Assembly (NCBI GenBank): GCA_900319975.1
Contig: ONQP01000006.1
Span: forward strand, 1-62,972
Length of the DNA stretch: 62,972 nucleotides
Direction: 5' to 3'
Source: an uncultured Bacteroidales bacterium
GTDB lineage: Bacteria; Bacteroidota; Bacteroidia; Bacteroidales; UBA932
The notes below the pieces were generated by a model, which did not search any database, was not told the origin of the DNA, and worked only from the letters and a program-made list of their open reading frames with translations. Position 1 is the first letter of the stretch. Each line of letters begins with the position of its first letter. Below are positions 18,741 to 29,517 of this stretch, in pieces. The position numbers were made by a program, and so were the translations under genes.

Positions 18741-21128
18741 CTATTTCATACGGTCTCTTGCATCCTTGCCGGCGCCCGTACCCTTGTACTTGCTGGCGGC
18801 GGTGTTGAAGCGGTAGCGGAGGGAGACCCCGACCCGCTGCGTGTCAAAGCGGTTGCTCTGGAGGATGTGGTAGCTGCCGGTGTTGCTGTCGATGTCGTAG
18901 TGGGCCAGGTTTGCGAGGTTGCTGCCGGTGATGCGGAGCACCAGGGAACCGTCGCGCAGGAGCGTCTTCTGGATGGCCGCGTTGACGTCGAGGTAGTGGT
19001 TGGCGAGGAAGATGTTCTGGGAGTAACCCTTGGAGTGGTATTCTGCGCCGAGCTCGATCTGCCAGCCCTTCGGCAGGGTGAGGGTGTTGTTGAGCTGCAC
19101 GAAGAAGAACGGCTTGTCGTTGAAGGAGAGCGAGCGCACGACCTTGTTGTCAGCGTCCTTGACGTCGATGTTGAGCCAGCCCTGCTGGATGCCGCCGACG
19201 AAGTTCAGGTTCCAGATGCCGATGGTCGGCGTGGCGACCACGTAGGCGGACAGCTGGCGGTACGGCTTGTCCAGGTTGTGCGGTTTCAGGAGGATGGCGC
19301 CTTCGTCGTCGTAGATGTTGGCCCAGGTGATGATGGGATCGTTCGTCCGGTCGTAGTTCAGCACGAAGGTGAAGAAGTTCCAGACCGTGGTCGAAGCCAG
19401 GGAGTGGGTGGTCTGCGGCTGGAGGGCGGCGTTGCCGCTCTGCAGGGTGTAGCGGTTGTTGTAGCGGATCGCGTTGGAGAGCGCCGAGTAGTTCGGGCGG
19501 GTGGTGCGGACGCTGTAGCTCAACATCTGCTGGACCTTGCCGAAGACACCGGCGAAGGAGACGGACGGGAAGAAGTTGTCATACTTGCGGGTGAAGCTGT
19601 TCTTGCCCAGGAGGTCGTCGTAGGCGTAGTTGACGTGCTCGTAGCGCAGGCCTGCGCTCAGCTGGCCGATCTGGCCGAGGACGAAGCCGTAGTTGACGAA
19701 GGCGGCGAGGTTGTCTTCCCGCACCTTGGCGGAAGAGGCCGGAATGTTGGCGCCCGACAGGGTGTAGTTGTCTTTACCGCGGGTGAAGGTCTCTTCGGTG
19801 CCCACCTGCAGCATGCCGCGCCAGATGGGATAGGAGAGCACGAGCTTGGCCGCATAGAGGTTGAGGTCGGAAGCGGACTCCGTGTTCACCGTCGCGCCTT
19901 CGATGTCGCTGGTCTCGAGGGCCGTGTTGATCTTGTTGTCGGTGACTTTGTAGTAGTCCAGGTTCAGGTCGATGCCGAGCTTGCCTACGTTGCCATTGTA
20001 GTATGCGTTTCCACCGAGGGTGTAGGGGGTGCGGCTGCCGAGGGCGCCGGTGTTCTCCGTGCGGAGATGGTCGAGCAGGGTGCCGTTGACGAACATGTCG
20101 CCTTCCATCCAGGTGTATTCTTTATAGGAAAGGCTCCGGTTGTAGTCCACCTTGAAGCCGGCGAAGTGGTTGTCGGCGATCTGCCAGTTGACACCGCCGT
20201 TGGCGCCGGCCGTCTTGTTGCCGAAGTAGCCGTCCAGGTCTTCTTCCTGACGATAGTTGGCCTTGCCGAGCGTCTCCTGCGTCAGGGTGCTGGTCTGGGT
20301 CTGGGTCGAGGAGGAGTAATTGGCACCGGCGAAGATGTCCACGCCGCCCGTGCGGTAGTTGACGTTGAGGTTGGCGCTCGGATCGTTGAAGTCCTTTCTC
20401 TGGAGCGACTGCTGGTCGGAGAGGGCCACGTCGAAGCCGAAGCCTTCGCCCTGGCGGCGGATGGTGCGGATGCGCACCACGGCACGCACGCTGGCGTCAT
20501 ACTGGGCGCCCGGGTTGTTGATGACCTCGACGCTCTGGATCTCGTGGCTCTGCAGGCGGTCCAGTTCGGATGCGTCTGTCATGCGGCGTCCGTTGATGTA
20601 TACGCGCGGGGCGCCTTTGCCCACGACCTCGATGCCGTCGCGGTTCTTGATCAGGCCGGGAACCTTGCCGAGGACGTCTCGGGCGGTGCCTGCGTTCTCC
20701 AGGACGGAGCCGCGGACGCTGGTGGCGAGGCCCTCGCCCGTGAGGCGGGTCTTGGGCATCACGGCGGAGATGCTCGCTTCGCCGAGCATTTCGGCGTCTT
20801 CGTTGAGGGTAATGGCGGGGAGATCCATCACCGGTCCGGCGAGTTTGATTTCTTTCTTGACGTCGCGGTAGCCGACGAGGGAGACGGTGAGGGTATAGTT
20901 GCCTTCGGCGGCGCGCAGTTCGAAGCGTCCGTTCAAGTCGGCGGTGTTTCCGGTGACGATGGTGCCGTCAGCGGCAGAGAGAAATACGGTAGCGAAGCCG
21001 GCAGGCTCGCCGGAAGCGTCTACGATGGAGCCACGAAGAAGGGTTTCTCCCTGGCGGGCGGCGAAGGCTCCGGTGCTAAAAGTCAGCGTGCAGAGCATCA
21101 GGAGCGCGATTTTGATCAGTCTTTTCAT
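18741..21128 (-). CDS. TonB-type outer-membrane receptor (outer membrane beta-barrel family, OMP_b-brl_3)
   Basis: The product is 795 aa. It has a signal peptide ('STGAFAA'), then an N-terminal carboxypeptidase-regulatory-like domain (residues ~28-110: 'GSIVDASGEPAGFATVFL', 'LTVSLVGYRDVKKEI'). A plug follows ('PRVYINGRRMTDASELDRLQ', 'VEVINNPGAQYDASV'), then a long barrel ending in 'GVSLRYRFN' and a short charged tail. Lack of a TonB box at the extreme N-terminus and no neighbouring SusD gene place it in the non-SusC group of barrel receptors. A full promoter (CAAAGGTA plus CAAA on this strand, 19-nt spacer) precedes it. Confidence 0.85.
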   Translation of the reverse strand: MKRLIKIALLMLCTLTFSTGAFAARQGETLLRGSIVDASGEPAGFATVFLSAADGTIVTGNTADLNGRFELRAAEGNYTLTVSLVGYRDVKKEIKLAGPVMDLPAITLNEDAEMLGEASISAVMPKTRLTGEGLATSVRGSVLENAGTARDVLGKVPGLIKNRDGIEVVGKGAPRVYINGRRMTDASELDRLQSHEIQSVEVINNPGAQYDASVRAVVRIRTIRRQGEGFGFDVALSDQQSLQRKDFNDPSANLNVNYRTGGVDIFAGANYSSSTQTQTSTLTQETLGKANYRQEEDLDGYFGNKTAGANGGVNWQIADNHFAGFKVDYNRSLSYKEYTWMEGDMFVNGTLLDHLRTENTGALGSRTPYTLGGNAYYNGNVGKLGIDLNLDYYKVTDNKINTALETSDIEGATVNTESASDLNLYAAKLVLSYPIWRGMLQVGTEETFTRGKDNYTLSGANIPASSAKVREDNLAAFVNYGFVLGQIGQLSAGLRYEHVNYAYDDLLGKNSFTRKYDNFFPSVSFAGVFGKVQQMLSYSVRTTRPNYSALSNAIRYNNRYTLQSGNAALQPQTTHSLASTTVWNFFTFVLNYDRTNDPIITWANIYDDEGAILLKPHNLDKPYRQLSAYVVATPTIGIWNLNFVGGIQQGWLNIDVKDADNKVVRSLSFNDKPFFFVQLNNTLTLPKGWQIELGAEYHSKGYSQNIFLANHYLDVNAAIQKTLLRDGSLVLRITGSNLANLAHYDIDSNTGSYHILQSNRFDTQRVGVSLRYRFNTAASKYKGTGAGKDARDRMK

Positions 21129-21163
21129 TGTGTTTCTGCGTGTAATAGTATATTAGTACACCG

Positions 21164-21194
21164 CAAAGGTAATCACATTTTTCATATCTCCAAA
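21164..21194 (-). promoter_or_regulatory. Promoter of the outer-membrane receptor gene
   Basis: Read on the minus strand: TTTG (21191-21194), 19-nt spacer, TACCTTTG (21164-21171). The receptor start codon is about 36 nt downstream of the -7 box. Confidence 0.75.
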
Positions 21195-21294
21195 ACTTTT
21201 TTCACTTTTTTCAACAGTTTGTTCGCGCGTCCTATATATTATTACGCGGGCATCTGCACGATCGGCTCCGGCCGGAGCTGGAATACTGCTTTTT

Positions 21295-21421
21295 GCCGGC
21301 AAGGCAGAACAGCCCCCTGCAAACGTCGCTTCGCTCCCCCTCCCACTTCCTGCGGAAGCGGGCCCCTCCCTCTAAGCCGAGGGTGGCATGGTTTGCTGGG
21401 GGCTATTCTGCCCTTGCCGGC
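21295..21421. repeat. 127-bp element with ~30-bp terminal inverted repeats (MITE-like or structured RNA)
   Basis: The left arm (21295-21324, starting GCCGGCAAGGCAGAA and ending CCTGCAAAC) is matched by the reverse complement of 21391-21421 with one gap and two mismatches. The interior is GC-rich and has a smaller hairpin CGCTTC/GAAGCG. No ORF is plausible. The remainder of the 450-bp intergenic region contains the receptor promoter on the left and the DUF47 promoter on the right. Confidence 0.6.
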
Positions 21422-21526
21422 GGGAAAATTCTACAAACCTGTTTTGGGATGCGGCTTTCTGCGCGTGTGAGGGCCTTTTTGCGATTTTAAAAACTCTACA
21501 ATAACACTGCAAAACTTGTAGAGTAC

Positions 21527-21558
21527 TTGTTTTTCTGCTCCTTTAATTACTACCTTTG
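21527..21558 (+). promoter_or_regulatory. Promoter of the DUF47/phosphate operon
   Basis: TTG at 21527-21529, 21-nt spacer, then TACCTTTG at 21551-21558. The DUF47 start codon is 22 nt downstream of the box. No PHO-box-type repeat is obvious. Confidence 0.6.
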
Positions 21559-21580
21559 ACCAGATAACCACGATAACCGG

Positions 21581-22243
21581 ATGAAACTGTTTGAACTGTT
21601 TTCTACAAAGAAGTCTTCCCGCTTCGTCGAGTCCGTTGACAAACTCCTCAACGATGTGGATACTGCCTTGATAATCTTCAAGGATGGTATCCGTTGCTAC
21701 CTCTACAATGATACGGAAGGCTTTGCCGAGAACCTCTCTACAATGGCCAGGCTCGAAGGGGAAGCCGGCGCCTTGCGGCGCGAGATCGAGAACATCCTCT
21801 ATTCCCGGGGCACGCTGATCCGGTACCGGGGAGACATCATGCGCCTGCTCGAGCGTTTCGACCATATCTTCACGATCCTGTCCAACGACCTGATCCAGTT
21901 CGAGATCGAAGCGCCGAACGTGCCGCAGGAGCTGAAGAAAGAATTCATGAAACTCACGGAGCTCGCGACGACGGCGGTGGAAACCACCATCCCGGGCACC
22001 AAAGCCTATTTCACGGACCCGGACAAGGTCTCCGAATCGTCCCACCGGGTCTATTTCTATGAAAAGGAGGCCGTCAAGCTTGCACAGTCCATCAAGCGTA
22101 CCGTCTTCCACGACATGCAGCACCTGAAACTGAGCGAAAAATTCCATCTCCGGTATTTCGCCCTGCATATCGAGGACCTCTCCACCGCCGCGGTCAAGGT
22201 GGCGGAGCAACTTTCGGTCATGGCCATCAAACGCAGCCTGTAA
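21581..22243 (+). CDS. DUF47 family (PhoU-like) protein
   Basis: The product is 220 aa, all-helical, with the family start 'FELFSTKKSSRFVESVDKL'. DUF47 proteins are PhoU-like helical bundles that normally sit next to PiT low-affinity phosphate permeases and modulate them. The following gene, 3 nt downstream, is not an ordinary PiT but a PiT-derived membrane domain joined to an HTH (see next feature), so this protein may regulate a sensor rather than a transporter. Acidic and basic residues suitable for metal or phosphate binding occur throughout (e.g. 'RYRGDIMRLLERFDHIF'). Confidence 0.88.
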   Translation: MKLFELFSTKKSSRFVESVDKLLNDVDTALIIFKDGIRCYLYNDTEGFAENLSTMARLEGEAGALRREIENILYSRGTLIRYRGDIMRLLERFDHIFTILSNDLIQFEIEAPNVPQELKKEFMKLTELATTAVETTIPGTKAYFTDPDKVSESSHRVYFYEKEAVKLAQSIKRTVFHDMQHLKLSEKFHLRYFALHIEDLSTAAVKVAEQLSVMAIKRSL

Positions 22244-22246
22244 GCC

Positions 22247-23896
22247 ATGGCATTCCGGATCCTGTTCCTCTCCCTCGTCACCCTTCTGGCGGTCTGGCCG
22301 GTGATCCGGTTCGAACTGCCGGCGGTGATAGGGCCGGTCTGGGCATCCGGTGCGAGCGAGCGGTGGTCCGTCAAGATCCTCCTCCCGCTGCTTTTCGTCG
22401 GCGCGCTGGTGTGCGCCGCCTGGGGTCTCCCGGTGGAGTCCGGCATCCTGCCGGCTTTTTCTTCTTCCGATCTCCCTTCGCTTTTCGTCATCGTCCTGTC
22501 GACGGCCGTCGCCGTCTCGGTCGCTTCCCTGATCAGCCCCTCCACCGCAGTCCCGTTCGCGTTCCTGGGCTCCGTCGCCGGTTTCCGCCTCGTGACGGAA
22601 GGAGAGCTGGACTGGATACAGACCGCGCGGACCGCAGCCTCCTGGGCCGTCGCCCCGCTGCTTTGCGGCCTGCTGGCCGCGGGCCTCGTGGCGCTGACGG
22701 TCCGTCGTCCGGGCAACCGCCCGGTCCAGCTGATCGTCTCTGACCAGCGGCTCCTGCTGGGGTGCACCCTGGCCGCATTCCTGCTGGCCGGGGCTGCGGC
22801 GTGGAACCTGGGTTCCATCGTCGCTTTCTTCCCGGTGTCCGCCTTGGGCGCCGGGCCGGTGTCCGCCGCCGTGGCGGCCGTCCCCGCCCTGCTGCTTTTC
22901 CTGCTGGTCCGTCCGGAGTTCTCCGCCAAGGCCTGGCATGTCGCGGACCAGGACCTTGATTTCACGTCCGGCCCCGTCTTCGCCATCCTGGCGGCGATGG
23001 GCCTGACCTATCTGGTCTTTTCCCTGCCGGTCCTCTCGCGGATCGGCCTGACGGCCACGCCGCTCCCCGCGCCGGTCTTGCTCCTGGCGGCGCTCGTGGG
23101 CGTGAGCCTGGCCCGCCGCAAGGCCCTGGTGGAAGGGGAGAAGGTGCTCAAATGCGCCCTGTCGGCCGTCGTCTGCCCGATTCTCGGACTGCTCGTCTGC
23201 TACTGCCTGTCGATGATCCTGAACGTCTCGCCGGAGGATGCCGGCCGGACGGGCTGGAACGCCCGGATCACCCCGACCCTGATCGTCCTCGGCATCATCG
23301 TCATCGCGGCGGTCCTTTCCCTGTATTTCCGGGCGCAGCGGCGCCGGGACCTCCAGACGGAGATCCTGCTTTCCCGCGAGCAGCAGATATACAATGCGCA
23401 GAAGACCCTCTCGGCGCTGGAAGTGAAGGCCGAGATGAATGAGCGCGACCTGCTCAACAAGCTGGAAATCAAGCGCAAGGAGCTGGTCGACTTCGCCGTG
23501 GGCGTCAGCGAGCAGAAAGAATATATGGAGAGCGTGTACGAGCGCCTCTCCCAGGTGCGGAGCCTGACGGATCCCGCGGAGAAGGACGCGGCTACCGACG
23601 AGCTCCTGAGCTCCCTGCGGGAGCGGATGTATTTCTCCCGCGAGATGAACGATTTCTACGCGCAGTCGGAAATCCTGCACAAGGACTTCAACATGCGCCT
23701 GAAAGAATCCTTCCCGAACCTGACCGAGAGCGAGCGCAAGCTGGCGATCCTCCTGCGTCAGGGGTTCTCTTCCAAATATATCGCGACGCTGATGAACATC
23801 ACGCCCAAGAGCGCCGAGATCAGCCGCTACCGTCTCCGGATCAAACTGGGACTCAAGCGTTCCGACAACCTCGTACAGTTCATCAAGTCCATCTGA
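22247..23896 (+). CDS. PiT permease-like membrane protein fused to a coiled coil and LuxR-type HTH
   Basis: The product is 549 aa. Residues 1-~360 are hydrophobic with two internally related halves that align by eye with the PiT (PF01384) repeats. In half 1, 'PAVIGPVWASGASERWSVK' resembles the PiT segment after GANDVAN, and 'SPSTAVPFAFLGSVAGF' (97-113) then 'LDWIQTARTAASWAVAPLL' resemble the PiT STTH...GxxxG region and the W...SWxxxPL segment. Half 2 repeats this more weakly ('TATPLPAPVLLLAALVGVSL', 269-288). The phosphate-site GANDxAN motif is absent in both. Residues ~362-450 form a charged coiled coil, and 488-549 a LuxR-type HTH ('NLTESERKLAILLRQGFSSK', 'NITPKSAEISRYRLRIKLGL'). It is probably a membrane-tethered transcription regulator that senses phosphate or DUF47 status. 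I know of no described protein with this architecture. Confidence 0.75.
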   Translation: MAFRILFLSLVTLLAVWPVIRFELPAVIGPVWASGASERWSVKILLPLLFVGALVCAAWGLPVESGILPAFSSSDLPSLFVIVLSTAVAVSVASLISPSTAVPFAFLGSVAGFRLVTEGELDWIQTARTAASWAVAPLLCGLLAAGLVALTVRRPGNRPVQLIVSDQRLLLGCTLAAFLLAGAAAWNLGSIVAFFPVSALGAGPVSAAVAAVPALLLFLLVRPEFSAKAWHVADQDLDFTSGPVFAILAAMGLTYLVFSLPVLSRIGLTATPLPAPVLLLAALVGVSLARRKALVEGEKVLKCALSAVVCPILGLLVCYCLSMILNVSPEDAGRTGWNARITPTLIVLGIIVIAAVLSLYFRAQRRRDLQTEILLSREQQIYNAQKTLSALEVKAEMNERDLLNKLEIKRKELVDFAVGVSEQKEYMESVYERLSQVRSLTDPAEKDAATDELLSSLRERMYFSREMNDFYAQSEILHKDFNMRLKESFPNLTESERKLAILLRQGFSSKYIATLMNITPKSAEISRYRLRIKLGLKRSDNLVQFIKSI

Positions 23897-23931
23897 AACA
23901 CCAAATACCAAATACCTAATTTTAAAGCACT

Positions 23932-25293
23932 ATGCGTAAGCCCATTTGCATGATTGCAATCCTGCTGACGACCCTGTCAGCGGCATTTGCCCAGGAGCCC
24001 GTCAAGTACAACCAGTACGGTGTGGCGGTGTCTTCCGACCGTTTGGACGTGGAGGCCCAGGACGGCATCCTCGTCTTAGCTTCCCCGAATTCGGGTTATA
24101 AACTCTGGTTCGACATCCGTGTCCAGGCCGACGCCGCCGCTTTCTTCGGCGCCCCGGACTACGCCGACCGGATCGGCGACGGCATCAGCATCCGCCGAGC
24201 CCGTTTCGCCGTGAAGGGCCAGCTCGACGAGAACTGGTACGGCGAGTTCGACATGGACCTCGCCAACGGTCTGGTAGAACTCAAGGACGCCATCGTGCGT
24301 TATACCGGTCTGCCCAACTGGGAGATCCAGGTCGGTAACTTCAAGGAGAACTTCTCCATCCAGCGCAACACGACCTCCCGCTACCTCCAGTTCATGGAGC
24401 GCCCGATGGTCTGCTCCGCCCTCACCCCTTCCCGCCACTTCGGTCTCAACGCCAAGTACGCCAAGGACTGGTTCTGGGGCAGCGCCGGTATCTTCGGACC
24501 CGAAATCGCCGGCGCCGAAGAGTGGCAGTACATCGCCGACAACAACAAGGACTTCGGCTACAACTCCGGCATGTCCCTCACCGGCAAGGTCGTTTTCCGT
24601 CCCCTCTACAAGATGAACGACGCCAGCCTGCACATCGGCGCCGCCGCTTCCTACCGCACCCCGAAGGCCAGCGCCGAGAAATACGGCTTCTATCGCGCCA
24701 GCGCCCGCAACTCCACCAGCATCAACCGCAAGAAGTATCTGGACACCAACGACCTCCCCGACTATGACCACAATCTCGTGTGGACCGTCGAACTGGCCGG
24801 CCACTACAAGGGCCTGCGCTATGAGGCCGCCTATGTCCAGGACAACGTGTCCTTCAAGGCCGACGCTGCGGATCCGTCCCCCAAGATGTTCAACGGCTGG
24901 TACGCACAGGCCGGTTACCTCCTGTTCGGCGGCACCCAGCGCTACGATGCCAACGGCGGCAAGTACACCAAGATCAAGCCCGGCCGCAAGTGGGGAGACA
25001 TCGAGCTCTGCGCCCGTTATGAGTACTGCAACCTGAACAGCGGCAATGTGTTCGGCGGCACCGCCGAGGCATACACGCTGGGCATCAACTACTGGGTCAC
25101 CAACAACGTGAAGATGCAGCTGAACTATCAGTTCAACAACAATGACCGCTACGCCAACGGCAAGAACAAGCTCTTCGTCGGCCTGGACGAGACCGGCGCT
25201 CCCACCAAGGACTTCGCCAAGGTGGTCACTGAAAAGGGCAAGGCCGGCGTCGACTATCATATGGTCGCTGTCCGTTTTGAAATTGACTTCTAA
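23932..25293 (+). CDS. Phosphate-selective porin O/P family outer-membrane protein
   Basis: The product is 453 aa with a signal peptide ending 'LSAAFAQ'. It has the OprO/OprP (PF07396) layout: 'GYKLWFDIRVQADAAAFF', 'GISIRRARFAVKGQLDENWYGEFDMD' and 'NWEIQVGNFKENFSIQRNTTS', then about 16 strands and a terminal 'VAVRFEIDF'. The family forms trimeric outer-membrane channels for phosphate or polyphosphate. It lies 35 nt after the PiT-HTH gene. The phosphate preference in this organism is inferred from family and neighbourhood; some Bacteroidota members are expressed under other anions. Confidence 0.85.
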   Translation: MRKPICMIAILLTTLSAAFAQEPVKYNQYGVAVSSDRLDVEAQDGILVLASPNSGYKLWFDIRVQADAAAFFGAPDYADRIGDGISIRRARFAVKGQLDENWYGEFDMDLANGLVELKDAIVRYTGLPNWEIQVGNFKENFSIQRNTTSRYLQFMERPMVCSALTPSRHFGLNAKYAKDWFWGSAGIFGPEIAGAEEWQYIADNNKDFGYNSGMSLTGKVVFRPLYKMNDASLHIGAAASYRTPKASAEKYGFYRASARNSTSINRKKYLDTNDLPDYDHNLVWTVELAGHYKGLRYEAAYVQDNVSFKADAADPSPKMFNGWYAQAGYLLFGGTQRYDANGGKYTKIKPGRKWGDIELCARYEYCNLNSGNVFGGTAEAYTLGINYWVTNNVKMQLNYQFNNNDRYANGKNKLFVGLDETGAPTKDFAKVVTEKGKAGVDYHMVAVRFEIDF

Positions 25294-25307: not shown

Positions 25308-26114
25308 ATGAAACAGCTCATTATAGCATCCTTAGCCGTCCTGATGGCCTTTACTGCCTGTGTGAAGGACGACGTGTATCCGTATACTTCCTTCTCCGGG
25401 ATGGAGAACACCATCGCGTACAATGAGAATGACGACGTGACCGTCTCCGTCAAGGCGTCGGCCCTGACGAAGATCAACGAGATCAACCTGATCTATTCCG
25501 TGGACCATTCCGCCCCCAAGGCGGTTGCCATGACGCTGGACGGCAAGAAGTACAAGGGCGTCATCCCCGCGCAGGCCATGGACGCCGTCGTGGAATACTA
25601 CGTGGAGGCCAAAACGGACGGCGCCGTGTCCAAGTCGGCCGTCGCCACCTATACCGTGGGCGTGATTCCCATCGACTTCACCCCGCTGAAGCTGAACGAG
25701 CTCAACGGAAACGAGAAGTTCATCGAGATCGTCAACACGGGTTCCAAGGACATCGACATGCGTGGTGTCTACATCCAGAAGGATGGCAACACCAAGTGGA
25801 CCGCCGCCGAGGGCATCACCCTCAAGGCCGGCAAGTTCCTCCTGCTCTACAGCTCGGACGTGACCGCCACGGGCGGCGCGCATGAAGGTTATGCCCCCGA
25901 ACTCGTTTTCGACGGCGGCCTGTCCGCCAAGAAGGCCGTGCGCGTGCAGCTGTTCGACCCCCGCGGCAACAGCCTGGACGACTTCAACCTGACCACCCTG
26001 CTCAAGAGCCAGGCCCCCGCTTCCTACGGCGTCAACGACAACGGCGGCTGGTATTACCAGGATGCGACTCCGGGTGCCAAGAACATCAACGGCACCGACG
26101 TAGTCTTTGAATAG
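25308..26114 (+). CDS. Lipoprotein with lamin-tail domain (LTD)
   Basis: The product is 268 aa. The lipobox 'AFTACVKDD' gives Cys at about residue 18. Residues ~40-120 resemble an Ig-like domain ('VSVKASALTKINEINLIYSV'). Residues ~130-245 are a lamin-tail-like beta-sandwich ('LKLNELNGNEKFIEIVNTGSKDIDMRGVYI'). It sits 14 nt downstream of the porin gene on the same strand, so it may be a surface partner of the porin, perhaps holding a phosphoester-containing substrate near the pore; that is speculation. Confidence 0.75.
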   Translation: MKQLIIASLAVLMAFTACVKDDVYPYTSFSGMENTIAYNENDDVTVSVKASALTKINEINLIYSVDHSAPKAVAMTLDGKKYKGVIPAQAMDAVVEYYVEAKTDGAVSKSAVATYTVGVIPIDFTPLKLNELNGNEKFIEIVNTGSKDIDMRGVYIQKDGNTKWTAAEGITLKAGKFLLLYSSDVTATGGAHEGYAPELVFDGGLSAKKAVRVQLFDPRGNSLDDFNLTTLLKSQAPASYGVNDNGGWYYQDATPGAKNINGTDVVFE

Positions 26115-26151: not shown

Positions 26152-26790
26152 ATGGCAGAACTTAAAATCGGCGAGATTTCCAAACCTCGCTTCGAATTCC
26201 GCAGCTTCGGTCAGTGCTTCTGCGAAGCGCACAAGCGGATGGCCCGCCTTTCCGTTCCCGTCCCTGAGAAGGTCTGGGAGCGCAGCAGCGACGAGATCTA
26301 CATCATTTCCGCGAAAAACGACATCAACAACACCAAGATCCGCGACGGCAAGATGGACATCAAGACGTATGTCCAGACGGTCGACGGCCTGGAGCAGTGG
26401 AACCCGCTCATGAAGGGCGAATTCCCGATCTCCCGCGAGGTGCTCGAGAAGGAAGTCTTCCCGGCCTTCATGGTGGAGATGCCCAAGCTGGACAAGGACA
26501 CCTATACCTTCGAAGAGTTCATCGCGATGGTGAAGGCCAACCCGTACCTCGCCGCGGTGCGCGTCCACAAGCAGCGCTTCGGCTACATGGTGAACAACAC
26601 CATCTGCGAGGTGGGCAACGTGCTCATCAACGGTGCGAAAGTCGTCACCATCAACTCCGAATCCACGGAGATCGAAGACATCAAGAAGACCATCGCTGAC
26701 TGCGGTCTCGAGGGTGTGGAGAACATCAACTATCTCCAGGCCATCAAGCGCGTGATCGGCATGAGCGACAAACCCCTTGCAAACGAATAA
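26152..26790 (+). CDS. CYTH-like (triphosphate tunnel) protein, divergent
   Basis: The product is 212 aa. The pattern 'TKIRDGKMDIKTYVQTVDGLEQWNPLMKGEFPI' and 'RFGYMVNNTICEVGNVLINGAKVVTI' match the beta-strand order of CYTH/TTM proteins. However, the hallmark ExExK near the N-terminus is not present; the equivalent region reads 'PRFEFRSFGQ'. The family includes adenylate cyclase class 2, thiamine-triphosphatase, polyphosphatase and other triphosphate hydrolases that bind the substrate inside a beta-barrel. It is 37 nt from the lipoprotein gene and 4 nt from a second, canonical CYTH gene. This copy may be non-catalytic or use a different nucleotide. Confidence 0.7.
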   Translation: MAELKIGEISKPRFEFRSFGQCFCEAHKRMARLSVPVPEKVWERSSDEIYIISAKNDINNTKIRDGKMDIKTYVQTVDGLEQWNPLMKGEFPISREVLEKEVFPAFMVEMPKLDKDTYTFEEFIAMVKANPYLAAVRVHKQRFGYMVNNTICEVGNVLINGAKVVTINSESTEIEDIKKTIADCGLEGVENINYLQAIKRVIGMSDKPLANE

Positions 26791-26794
26791 TGCC

Positions 26795-27271
26795 ATGGCA
26801 CAGGAAATTGAAAAGAAATTTTTGGTGAAGGGCGACTTCAAGGCCGAGGTCTGCAAGGCCACCCGCATCACCCAGGGCTATCTCTGCAGCGTGCCGGAGC
26901 GCACCGTGCGCGTCCGCGTGAAAGGTGAAAAAGGATTCATCACCGTCAAGGGCATCGGCAACGCCTCCGGCGCCGCCCGCTTCGAGTGGGAGAAGGAAAT
27001 CCCCGTGGACGAGGTGAAGTCCCTGCTCGAGCTCGCCGAACCCGGCGTGATCGACAAGACCCGCTATCTGGTGAAGAACACCGACGGCAAGCACACTTGG
27101 GAAGTGGACGAGTTCTACGGAGACAACGACGGCCTCACCGTCGCCGAGATCGAGCTCACCGACGAGAACGAACCTTTCGACAAGCCCGCGTGGCTCGGCG
27201 AGGAGGTGACCGGCGACCCCAAGTACTTCAATTCCATGCTCATGAAGAACCCTTACAAGAACTGGAAGTAA
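26795..27271 (+). CDS. CYTH-domain triphosphatase (triphosphate tunnel metalloenzyme)
   Basis: The product is 158 aa from the ATG at 26795; an earlier in-frame start lies within the previous gene. The N-terminal motif 'EIEKKFLV' is the ExExK signature that binds metal and phosphate. 'RVRVKGEKGFITVKG', 'FEWEKEIP', 'KTRYLV' and 'WEVDEFYGDNDGLTVAEIEL' supply the usual tunnel Arg, Lys and Glu residues. The family hydrolyses inorganic triphosphate, thiamine triphosphate or nucleotides. Its location in a phosphate cluster favours inorganic tri- or polyphosphate, an inference. It precedes the SLC13 gene by 4 nt. Confidence 0.9.
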   Translation: MAQEIEKKFLVKGDFKAEVCKATRITQGYLCSVPERTVRVRVKGEKGFITVKGIGNASGAARFEWEKEIPVDEVKSLLELAEPGVIDKTRYLVKNTDGKHTWEVDEFYGDNDGLTVAEIELTDENEPFDKPAWLGEEVTGDPKYFNSMLMKNPYKNWK

Positions 27272-27275
27272 TCTT

Positions 27276-28880
27276 ATGACGACAGAGACCAAGACAAAGG
27301 CGGCGTTCGATCCGCTGGACATGGGCAATTATAAGGTTGAGAAACTGCCCAAGATGCAGAAATCGAAGTTCGAGATATGGATGGCCCGGCTGGGCGGTCC
27401 ATTGGCGATCGTCGCCTTTGTCTGGATCTGTTGGTTCTGCCACGTCGGCTTCATCGACAACCTGGACACGGGCCTGCTCGCCTCCACGGCGCAGAAGCGG
27501 CTCGACGCCCTGGGCCTGGCCGGGTTCATCCGGGCCAACTACGCGATGCTGGCCATCTTCGTGGCGAGCCTCATCCTGTGGATGACGGAAGCCATTCCCA
27601 ATTACCTGACTTCCCTCGTCCTCATCCTGCTGACGGTCCTGTTCAACGTGACCACGCAGAAGGAAGCGCTGGCCCAGCTGGGCCACCCTGTGATGTGGCT
27701 CAACATCCTGAGCTTCGTGCTCGCTTCGATGCTCGTGAAGACCCAGTTCGCCAAACGGCTCGCCCTTGCCTTCGTGATCAAGTTCGGCAAGAGCGCCAAA
27801 GGCGTGCTCTGGAGTTTCCTGGTGATCAACCTGGTGCTGTCGGCCTTCATCTCCGCGACGACGGTGAAGGCTACGATCATGCTCCCGATCTTCATGGTCA
27901 TCTGCGCCATCTACGGCGCATCCGGCGGCCACCGCAACAACTTCGGCCGCAACCTCGTCATCCAGAACCTGTTCCAGGTCAACATCGGCGCGAACGCCTT
28001 CTATACAGGCTCCGGCGCGCACCTGCTGGCCATTTCCCTCATCGCCGGATTCGTGGGCTCCTGCGACTTCGGCTACAAGGAGTGGCTGGTGGCCGTCGGC
28101 CCGATGTCGCTGATCATCCTGGTGGTGGGCCTGCTCCTGGGCATGTTCGTGTTCTTCCCGATGAAGAAGGAAGAGCAGGTGCCCCAGATCGAGGGCGGCA
28201 TCGAGCGCCTGAAGGGCGAGCTCGCTGCGATGGGCAAGATGTCCGCCGAGGAATGGAAGGCCGTGGCCATCTTCCTGGTGGTCCTCTTCCTGTGGGTCAC
28301 CAAAGGCACCTTCCACAACATTGACGAGACGATCGTCGCCCTGATCGGCGCCGTCCTGGCCCTGATTCCGGGCATCGGCGTCGTGAAATGGAACGACGTC
28401 GACATTCCCTGGCACCTGATGCTCTTCTCCGCCGGCGCCTATGTGCTCGGCAGCGGCCTCAATGCCACGGACCTCCCCAATACGATGGTCAACGCGGCCT
28501 TCGATTCGCTGGGCATCACCGCCAACACCCCGTTCTGGGTGCTGTATGTCATCCTCACCTTCCTGATGATGTACTCCGGTCTGGTGTTCCAGTCCAAGAC
28601 CATCCGGACGATGGTGTTCGTCCCCATCGCCCTGGGCGTGGAGAAGCGTTTCGGCTTCCCGCCCATGAGCCTCGCCCTTCCGGTGGCGATGCTCATCGAG
28701 CACTGCTACGTGCTCCCGTTCAACAGCAAGCCCGCCGCGCTGCTGTACAACACGAACCAATACAGCCAGACCGATGCCTTCAAGTACGGCATCACGATGA
28801 TGACTTTCTCCTGGCTGCTCATCCTGGTCTTCGGCGAGACCCTGCTCAAGTGGCTGCATATCACGCCGGGACTGTTTTAA
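27276..28880 (+). CDS. SLC13 (DASS) anion:Na+ symporter-like transporter
   Basis: The product is 534 aa with about 11-12 membrane segments. SLC13 family features are visible: 'LILWMTEAIPNYLTSLVLIL' in the first half, a hairpin-like 'VMWLNILSFVLAS', and a 'WHLMLFSAGAYVLGSGL' segment in the second half. The two sodium-site SNT motifs appear changed: ATT in 'SATTVKATIMLPI' and SKT in 'SKTIRTMVFVPI'. Substrates of the family include sulfate, phosphate and dicarboxylates. Neighbours point to an anion related to phosphate metabolism, but the substrate is unproven. It is in one transcription unit with CYTH genes and mgtC-like gene. Confidence 0.82.
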   Translation: MTTETKTKAAFDPLDMGNYKVEKLPKMQKSKFEIWMARLGGPLAIVAFVWICWFCHVGFIDNLDTGLLASTAQKRLDALGLAGFIRANYAMLAIFVASLILWMTEAIPNYLTSLVLILLTVLFNVTTQKEALAQLGHPVMWLNILSFVLASMLVKTQFAKRLALAFVIKFGKSAKGVLWSFLVINLVLSAFISATTVKATIMLPIFMVICAIYGASGGHRNNFGRNLVIQNLFQVNIGANAFYTGSGAHLLAISLIAGFVGSCDFGYKEWLVAVGPMSLIILVVGLLLGMFVFFPMKKEEQVPQIEGGIERLKGELAAMGKMSAEEWKAVAIFLVVLFLWVTKGTFHNIDETIVALIGAVLALIPGIGVVKWNDVDIPWHLMLFSAGAYVLGSGLNATDLPNTMVNAAFDSLGITANTPFWVLYVILTFLMMYSGLVFQSKTIRTMVFVPIALGVEKRFGFPPMSLALPVAMLIEHCYVLPFNSKPAALLYNTNQYSQTDAFKYGITMMTFSWLLILVFGETLLKWLHITPGLF

Positions 28881-28881
28881 A

Positions 28882-29517
28882 ATGATTGACGCTATGGAAT
28901 TTGATTGGGATTTGATACTCCGCCTGTTCATGGGCGGAATGATGGGCGGACTGATAGGCCTGGAGCGCGAGTTCCGCGCGAAGGAGGCCGGTCTCCGCAC
29001 GCATTTCATCGTGGCGCTGGGCAGCGCCCTGTTCATGATGATCTCGCAGTTCGCGTTCAACGGCCGTTTCGACGCCGCCCGCGTGGCCGCGCAGGTCGTA
29101 TCCGGTATCGGTTTCATCGGTGCCGGCGTCATCATCTTCCAGAAGAACGTGGTCCGCGGCGTCACGACCGCGGCCGGCCTGTGGGTGGCCGCCGCCATCG
29201 GCCTCGCCTGCGGCGCCGGGATGTACTGGCTGGCCGGAGCGGCCACGCTGATGACCGTCGTCTGCCTGGAAATGATGCACCTGGTGCACCGCTGCATCGC
29301 CGAAAAGGTGGTGGAGGTCACCCTCTCCTCCGACGGGGAGACCGATCCGCTCGCGGTGCTGGAAAAGGTGAAGGCATTGAACATGCGGGCGGAATCCTAT
29401 TCCTTCTCCGGCGGCAAGATCCACCTGTCGCTGCGGATGCGCCGGAAGGACAGCCTGGAGGCACTCCGGAACCTCGTCAACAAGCTGGAAGGCCTCCGGA
29501 TTGAAGACCTGAACTAA
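28882..29517 (+). CDS. MgtC/SapB family membrane protein
   Basis: The product is 211 aa, beginning 1 nt after the SLC13 stop. The N-terminal 130 residues contain four to five membrane segments with the family motif 'GGLIGLEREFRAKEAGLRTH', and further 'IGFIGAGVIIFQKN' and 'TTAAGLWVAAAIGLACG'. A cytoplasmic ACT-like C-terminus follows. MgtC proteins are linked to growth in low Mg2+ and to phosphate and ATP homeostasis (in Salmonella MgtC affects phosphate uptake). The presence here next to phosphate genes fits that link. Confidence 0.88.
   Translation: MIDAMEFDWDLILRLFMGGMMGGLIGLEREFRAKEAGLRTHFIVALGSALFMMISQFAFNGRFDAARVAAQVVSGIGFIGAGVIIFQKNVVRGVTTAAGLWVAAAIGLACGAGMYWLAGAATLMTVVCLEMMHLVHRCIAEKVVEVTLSSDGETDPLAVLEKVKALNMRAESYSFSGGKIHLSLRMRRKDSLEALRNLVNKLEGLRIEDLN

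Follow-up and report, generated by a model that had tools for sequence, protein, structure and literature searches.

A PiT-type permease domain fused to a LuxR-type helix-turn-helix in Bacteroidales: a transporter that seems to have become a membrane-bound gene switch

A 549-residue protein encoded in the window (the whole stretch of 62,972 nucleotides of DNA, from a gut bacterium of the Bacteroidales, that was analysed) joins a degenerate PiT-like membrane domain to a LuxR-type helix-turn-helix (HTH) in a single chain. With the substrate site missing from the permease half and the HTH strictly conserved, the protein looks like a nutrient transporter converted into a membrane-bound gene switch. 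We lean slightly towards the reading that the protein is a membrane-tethered one-component autoregulator, with a worn-out PiT/CysP-type anion permease as its sensor half. No account of such a fusion was found in a literature search of open-licence papers.

Results

The relevant features of the window are listed below; all lie on the + strand.

21493–21524, +, candidate operator (tandem match unique in own assembly; similar motif upstream in relatives)
21581–22243, +, DUF47/PhoU_div partner gene, 220 aa (PF01865, E 1.4e-6, above cut-off)
22247–23896, +, PiT–LuxR protein, 549 aa (open ORF with ATG start)
22247–23266, +, its degenerate PiT-like membrane domain and linker, residues 1–340 (PHO4, hhalign, Foldseek, hydrophobic peaks)
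23267–23332, +, its extra TM helix, residues 341–362, followed by AQRRRD (AF2 helix, hydropathy)
23327–23698, +, its predicted coiled coil, residues 361–484 (AF2 helices 341–438 and 443–488)
23699–23893, +, its LuxR/GerE HTH, residues 485–549 (PF00196, fold match to DosR 1zlj)
23932–25293, +, OprP/OprO-type porin, 453 aa (PF07396, Porin_O_P, E 3.4e-44; conserved neighbour)
25308–26114, +, lamin-tail-domain (LTD) protein, 268 aa (PF00932, E 6.8e-13)
26152–26790, +, 212-aa protein, highly conserved operon gene (none above Pfam/NCBIfam cut-off)
26777–27271, +, CYTH-domain protein (PF01928, E 1.4e-13)
27276–28880, +, SLC13/DASS-type anion symporter (PF00939, E 3.4e-53; TIGR00785, 197.1 bits, cut-off 198.6)

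The preliminary description had read the protein as a PiT-like membrane part, a coiled coil and a LuxR-type HTH, and the domain searches and models agreed with this order. Against Pfam, PF01384 (PHO4) matched with E 2.4e-5 and 23.9 bits, under the cut-off of 33.7; the similarity consisted of two stretches and was strongest at residues 48–152. PF00196 (GerE) matched residues 491–544 with E 1.3e-4 and 21.9 bits (cut-off 23.5). Among three other degenerate members scanned, L029 stood above both curated cut-offs (PHO4 44.1 bits, GerE 36.3 bits), and L023 and L108 were above that for GerE; the PHO4 score of L023 was below the cut-off (30.7 bits), and L108 gave no PHO4 match at E ≤ 0.1. When the window's family was aligned by hhalign with a profile of preserved PiT–LuxR relatives, E was 5e-84 and the probability 100.

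The AlphaFold2 (AF2) model (pLDDT 82.5, pTM 0.63) consisted of a helical membrane domain, the extra TM helix, a long helix pair predicted to form the coiled coil, and the HTH. With Foldseek at E ≤ 0.001, the PiT structure TmPiT (6l85) alone was picked, by both chains (E 1.6e-5 and 1.9e-5). The TM-score by target was modest for the window protein (0.47–0.53), compared with 0.65–0.67 for a preserved relative. For the HTH, the C-terminal domain of DosR (1zlj) was matched with a TM-score by target of 0.72–0.76, probability 1.00 and E 0.32–0.35. Judged by sequence and model, the membrane half is descended from PiT (PF01384) permeases; since the window protein itself scores under the curated Pfam cut-offs, the evidence for this descent comes from its relatives, from the profile comparison and from the fold. 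The C-terminus is expected to be cytoplasmic by the positive-inside rule applied to AQRRRD. TM segments and a DNA-binding domain are thus present in one chain that has neither kinase nor receiver, which is what defines a transmembrane transcription regulator (TTR).

Among 400 genomes of the genus, 109 matched the family profile at E ≤ 1e-20. Near-full-length matches were found at 80 places in 79 of the genomes, own included (E ≤ 5.2e-110; hand count); two of these begin at profile positions 70 and 99, and one has an internal TAG. Three further genomes (G377, G103, G070) span the profile at E 1e-72 to 1e-75, and the remaining matches are mostly tail-only regulators or shorter forms. The window protein is 28–57% identical to the 17 other full-length members of the first alignment. 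Frameshift, chimera or chance fusion was ruled out by these 80 places, which match the profile nearly end to end. The source is a MAG assembly, where two separate genes could be misread as one; however, dozens of genomes, and independent named records as well, show the same intact fusion, and we give such an artefact practically no weight.

Among 393 genomes of the order, 107 matched at E ≤ 1e-24, and 21 of the matches were nearly full-length (13 families and 14 genera by hand tally). Of the 21, G622 is a degenerate member of the window's own family, and G473 and G772 have an in-frame stop. A strong PHO4 domain was present in all seven fusions scanned from other families (E 6.9e-40 to 3.3e-64). 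In a phylum sample of 296 genomes, 10 besides the own genome matched the preserved profile at E ≤ 1e-50, through the PiT part alone and with no HTH. Within the genus, order and phylum samples, which are mostly MAGs, the fusion is hence confined to the window's order, Bacteroidales. At the same locus, shortened fusions of 415 and 439 aa were also seen (L039 631–1878, L040 7623–8942), with a smaller membrane half and the tail kept. At L155 (6039–7274), a fused-type PiT beside DUF47 ends shortly past the extra TM helix and has no HTH, possibly through secondary loss of the tail.

The own assembly (2.19 Mb) is 88% complete. No second PF01384 match at E ≤ 0.001 was found in it besides the window gene; across 200 genus genomes, 53 have a PF01384 match above the cut-off. 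The PstB model gave 33 matches in the own genome, none over its cut-off, an absence that is weak at this completeness. Another PiT, of 746–769 aa, lies beside PhoB above the NCBIfam cut-off at two genus loci (L069 4029–8851, L076 4714–9046).

As described earlier from the ORF coordinates, and in agreement with Pfam, the fusion gene lies 3 nt behind DUF47, the place usual for PiT, and ahead of the OprP/O-type porin, whose ORF begins 35 nt past it. The DUF47 protein is the sole DUF47 match in the own genome. The expected homologues of the same architecture beside DUF47 were found: each of the 19 order loci examined (L137–L154, L156) has DUF47 5' of the fusion gene, and 17 of the 18 with continuing sequence have the porin 3' of it (the exception is L154; L140 ends there). 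The genes that usually come next are those for LTD, the 212-aa protein, CYTH and SLC13. Genus loci likewise have DUF47 and porin on either side wherever the contig extends, followed by the later genes; an LTD match was absent in genus loci L030, L071 and L074. The operon DUF47, PiT–LuxR, porin, LTD, 212-aa protein, CYTH and SLC13 is conserved across the order. The 212-aa protein, which has no curated family, is its most evenly conserved product (93–99% identity among genus loci, 71–84% across order loci). In some families the LTD-type protein has 812–824 aa (L138 10033–12507, L139 2386–4824), compared with 268 aa in the window. An MgtC/SapB-like membrane protein (28882–29517; NCBIfam E 2.2e-50, under cut-off) is encoded right behind the SLC13 gene.

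The GANDxAN phosphate-site motif, noted as missing in the preliminary description, was absent from all 19 aligned degenerate loci: signature 1 was lost in 19/19 and signature 2 was reduced to Asn187. In the 17 preserved fused loci, repeat 1 has GxND in 15 and the Asp in 16, whereas repeat 2 reads GANN in all 17, so that the second signature Asp is replaced by Asn; Gln replaces the His of the canonical PiT PVSTTH in 17/17. Plain-PiT relatives also have GANN (10/10), with a variable repeat 1 (GAND in 4/10). Outside the window's family, signature 1 was lost in L153 (GAQG) and altered in L142 (GSKD). L153 was nevertheless counted as preserved (PHO4 E 6.9e-40). G773 (L156) was also counted, on the strength of its full-length ORF, although its profile match is partial. 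The preserved set leaves out L139, whose fusion gene carries an in-frame stop, and G772, G764 and G484 (no wider region), and the degenerate rows leave out the short L013/L039 and L014/L040, L028 (cut) and L071–L074.

Mean identity over the 171 pairs of degenerate loci was 0.27 for the membrane part, 0.781 for the HTH and 0.629 for DUF47; over the 136 pairs of preserved loci the values were 0.595, 0.598 and 0.701, respectively. The median ratio of membrane to DUF47 identity was 0.41 for the degenerate and 0.87 for the preserved loci. In human PiT2, the residues D28, E55, S113, H502, D506, E575 and S593 are described as critical for transport (PMC3126765), and the positions aligned to D28, E55, H502 and D506 are changed in the window lineage. 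In a tree of DUF47, 16 degenerate rows (15 of the 19, and L040) formed one group (SH-aLRT 99), and the branching order among preserved, plain and degenerate groups was left unsettled. The term "dead permease" used earlier fits the window lineage, where the substrate signature is lost; other families keep a well-preserved PiT half. As the fusion occurs there with a preserved PiT half, sequence comparison indicates that a permease–regulator stage probably preceded the dead permease.

Upstream of DUF47, CTCTACAATAACACTGCA at 21494–21511 repeats imperfectly, in direct orientation, every 11 bp; a copy in inverted orientation, TTGTAGAGT, is present at 21516–21524. Downstream of these, TACCTTTG at 21551–21558 resembles the Bacteroidetes –7 promoter consensus. 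When the 2.19-Mb own assembly was searched for CTCTACAAWAACTCTACA with up to 3 mismatches, the candidate operator was the sole match (2 mismatches). In the 300 bp before DUF47, C[AT]CTACA occurred on the coding strand in 20/20 genus loci (which include the window, L040, L071, L073 and L074) and in 13 of 18 others (the 17 preserved loci and L137), the Markov-shuffled means being 0.93 and 0.76; it was absent from these 300 bp in the other 5 of the 18 fused loci outside the genus. On the reverse strand of the same 300 bp it was present in 4 genus loci and 2 others. Counted in 300-b bins, CTCTACA appeared 36 times in 19 upstream bins of genus loci, against 0.066 per bin elsewhere, and 11 times in 17 upstream bins of other fused loci, against 0.018. 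The first 300 b of DUF47 held 24 copies in 19 genus loci compared with 3 in 18 others; these may reflect coding. Two further copies in the window lie inside the DUF47 coding start (21701 and 21736).

Site spacing in the 18 other loci fitted 10.8 bp (15 pairs, mean cosine 0.84; 0/2000 jittered sets as good), a period picked for testing after the spacings had been seen. Phasing was weaker in the genus loci, where the best period was 11.4 and where, at 10.8, 101, 116 and 9 of 2000 jittered sets did as well for the three patterns tried. A scan of 200 genus genomes for tandem sites with up to 2 mismatches gave 46 sites, 31 of which stand 736–860 bp before the fusion on the same strand (hand count). 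Exact tandem sites numbered 22; 20 stand at this distance from the fusion gene, and each of the remaining two is on a different contig from the fusion gene, which in these genomes lies close to the edge of its own contig. The reversed-pattern control gave 53 sites (hand count); as the total of 46 does not exceed this, the support comes from position and exactness, not from number. Before nine plain-PiT operons, no forward C[AT]CTACA was found, and one reverse copy was; these loci are phylogenetically distant, so the absence has other possible causes. CTCTACA-type repeats thus precede most fused operons but not the nine plain ones.

Farther upstream, a long imperfect hairpin was predicted by RNA folding at 21285–21435 (–80.2 kcal/mol, z –6.5 vs shuffles). 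A 96% copy was seen in L081 alone among the fetched loci. An Rfam scan of 20900–24300 gave no match at E ≤ 0.1, and a repeat search of 21130–21600 reported no inverted repeat, despite this predicted hairpin.

The plain-PiT loci were examined for gene order and neighbours. Eight of ten are ordered 212-aa gene, CYTH, SLC13, DUF47, PiT, porin (L195 has an extra gene before DUF47); L197 covers SLC13 onward to the contig end, and L192 consists of DUF47 and PiT only. Pfam identified an LTD gene in L191. Divergent PhnD-like and histidine kinase genes accompany 8/10 of these loci, with an NtrC-type regulator in seven (L194 is cut there); the exceptions are L192, which has none, and L197, which ends in SLC13. 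PF12974 was found in all three PhnD-like proteins scanned. The fetched regions of 20 order loci (L137–L156, among which L155 is without the tail) and of 21 genus loci (L022 and L072 being one locus) showed no PhnD-like gene, nor did the window; the upstream reach of these regions varies, some extending less than 1 kb from DUF47, and two-component systems may lie farther off or elsewhere in the genome. Other regulators lie near two fused loci (an OmpR-type pair at L148, an NtrC-like regulator at the edge of L034). The presence of a PhnD-like system beside plain PiT, with none seen at fused loci, suggests a regulator swap at the sequence level, in which the LuxR tail replaced the neighbouring PhnD-like/kinase/NtrC system. 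The contrasts between fused and plain, and between degenerate and preserved loci, follow lineages and so represent few events.

Discussion

We propose that the coiled coil would pair two cytoplasmic HTHs beneath the membrane, and that the paired HTHs would bind CTCTACA repeats about one helical turn apart, thereby controlling one operon only, in cis, from the membrane. The tail is a candidate reader of CTCTACA, and another protein may read it instead. The role in transcription that had been put forward for the protein is suggested by the conservation of the HTH and by a motif that tracks the tail. As the signature is gone, the signal more likely comes from a partner protein than from a ligand bound in the PiT core; the input would be protein contact, with the co-transcribed DUF47 partner as the first candidate and the SLC13 transporter at work as the alternative. 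In evolution, a plain permease under a neighbouring two-component system would have gained the LuxR tail in Bacteroidales, with the two-component system gone from beside the operon; in the window's family, permease function would then have been lost and the switch kept. This two-step account, in which the permease took over the job of the PhnD-like/kinase/NtrC system, and the carrier then died and left a partner-signalled switch that reads CTCTACA, we hold tentatively, at somewhat under an even chance.

The reader of the repeats could be another regulator such as PhoB, with the membrane half a mere anchor. The poor sequence conservation of the membrane half would fit this, as would the layout of the repeats, a 7+4 bp direct repeat similar to that of the E. 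coli Pho box. The own genome, however, holds a single tandem site, and besides its absence in forward orientation from all nine plain-PiT upstream regions, C[AT]CTACA was found in 0/6 promoters (four of the 746–769-aa PiT, two of PhoB) and in 1/8 canonical PiT/DUF47 promoters. A weakness of these promoter counts is that the genomes behind the six (G124, G077, G181, G013) gave no fusion match and that three of those behind the eight carry the fusion (G218, G023, G071). We consider this reading unlikely, though by no means negligible. It is far less probable that the window protein combines regulation with anion transport to this day: it keeps ten hydrophobic peaks, one of them the extra TM helix, but the signature residues are lost, mean identity of the membrane half is 27%, and the 415- and 439-aa forms exist at the same locus. 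The preliminary description had proposed a transceptor, a dead permease that senses phosphate or the DUF47 partner. DUF47 and OprP/O-type neighbours are in line with an altered PiT core that still binds phosphate and signals to the HTH, and the transporter domain of Ks-Amt5 is described as binding without translocating (PMC5764959). With signature 1 lost in all 19 degenerate loci, signature 2 down to Asn and four positions reported as critical in PiT2 (PMC3126765) changed, the substrate site is gone; the preserved subfamily, with GANN for GAND in 17/17, already lacks the second signature Asp, as does CysP. Phosphate sensing by this domain is therefore unsupported, and we regard it as improbable; sensing through DUF47 may still occur.

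What the ancestral permease carried is a question compatible with the preferred reading of a membrane-tethered autoregulator. Sulfate (CysP-like) or another oxyanion is a plausible substrate, if short of the likelier answer; the site would then have been lost in the window lineage along with sulfate assimilation. Preserved PiT parts scored best against the CysP NCBIfam model (E 5e-20 for L138, 5e-24 for L155), while the plain 358-aa PiT of the genus prefers PitA. CysP is reported to have G and N at the two signature Asp positions, and Asn at the second to be linked to sulfate, not phosphate (PMC5840216); CysP is also described as substituting for the E. coli sulfate importer (PMC11535334). The SLC13 gene of the operon is of DASS type. 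PF01507 (CysD/CysH) was found in 6/6 preserved-form genomes, 0/14 degenerate-form genus genomes and 14/14 controls, and Na/Pi cotransporters (PF02690) in 18 of the same 20 chosen genomes. The CysP scores are, however, far under the cut-off of 400 bits (71.7 for L138, 84.7 for L155), and the plain 358-aa PiT matches CysP too (62.9 bits); the window protein gave no match to the CysP model at E ≤ 1. The PF01507 contrast sets one lineage against others in 20 chosen genomes and perhaps reflects one event. Moreover, no cys gene was seen in the operon, the signature 1 Asp is still present in 16/17 preserved loci, and the DUF47, OprP/O and PhnD-like neighbours suggest phosphorus.

If the proposal is true, a transporter has been fused directly to a DNA-binding domain, and the full path can be followed in living genomes, from a plain permease with a two-component system, through the permease–regulator fusion, to a pseudo-permease regulator. 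Comparison of the preserved and dead forms makes the transporter-to-sensor question testable. The finding also supplies a predicted operator for an anion-uptake operon, so far uncharacterised, that recurs across Bacteroidota.

Comparison with known systems

The protein shares with PiT permeases (PF01384; TmPiT 6l85, human SLC20, B. subtilis CysP) the fold, the two-repeat ancestry and the DUF47 neighbour, but the window lineage lost the signatures, and an extra TM helix, a coiled coil and a LuxR HTH are added. Like the TTRs of a published survey, in which Bacteroidia are described as rich in such proteins, it is a one-component, membrane-tethered DNA-binding protein; it differs in having a whole permease domain as sensor, and in the main text of the survey LuxR/GerE is not mentioned and "transporter" occurs once, in the reference list (PMC10269533). 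The ammonium sensor kinase Ks-Amt5, described as binding ammonium without translocation and signalling via its fused kinase, is similar in having a transporter domain recruited as sensor and fused to an output; there the output is a histidine kinase, and here it is a DNA-binding domain directly (PMC5764959). In Bacteroidales propeller/Y_Y_Y and TPR regulators, the TM–coil–LuxR tail is homologous, which marks it as a portable output unit, and here a PiT domain is the input part instead. PitR is a DUF47 protein. PitR/PhoU accessory regulators resemble the present partner in being small proteins encoded with a PiT transporter, but their signal is described as running to the PhoPR two-component system (PMC13170248).
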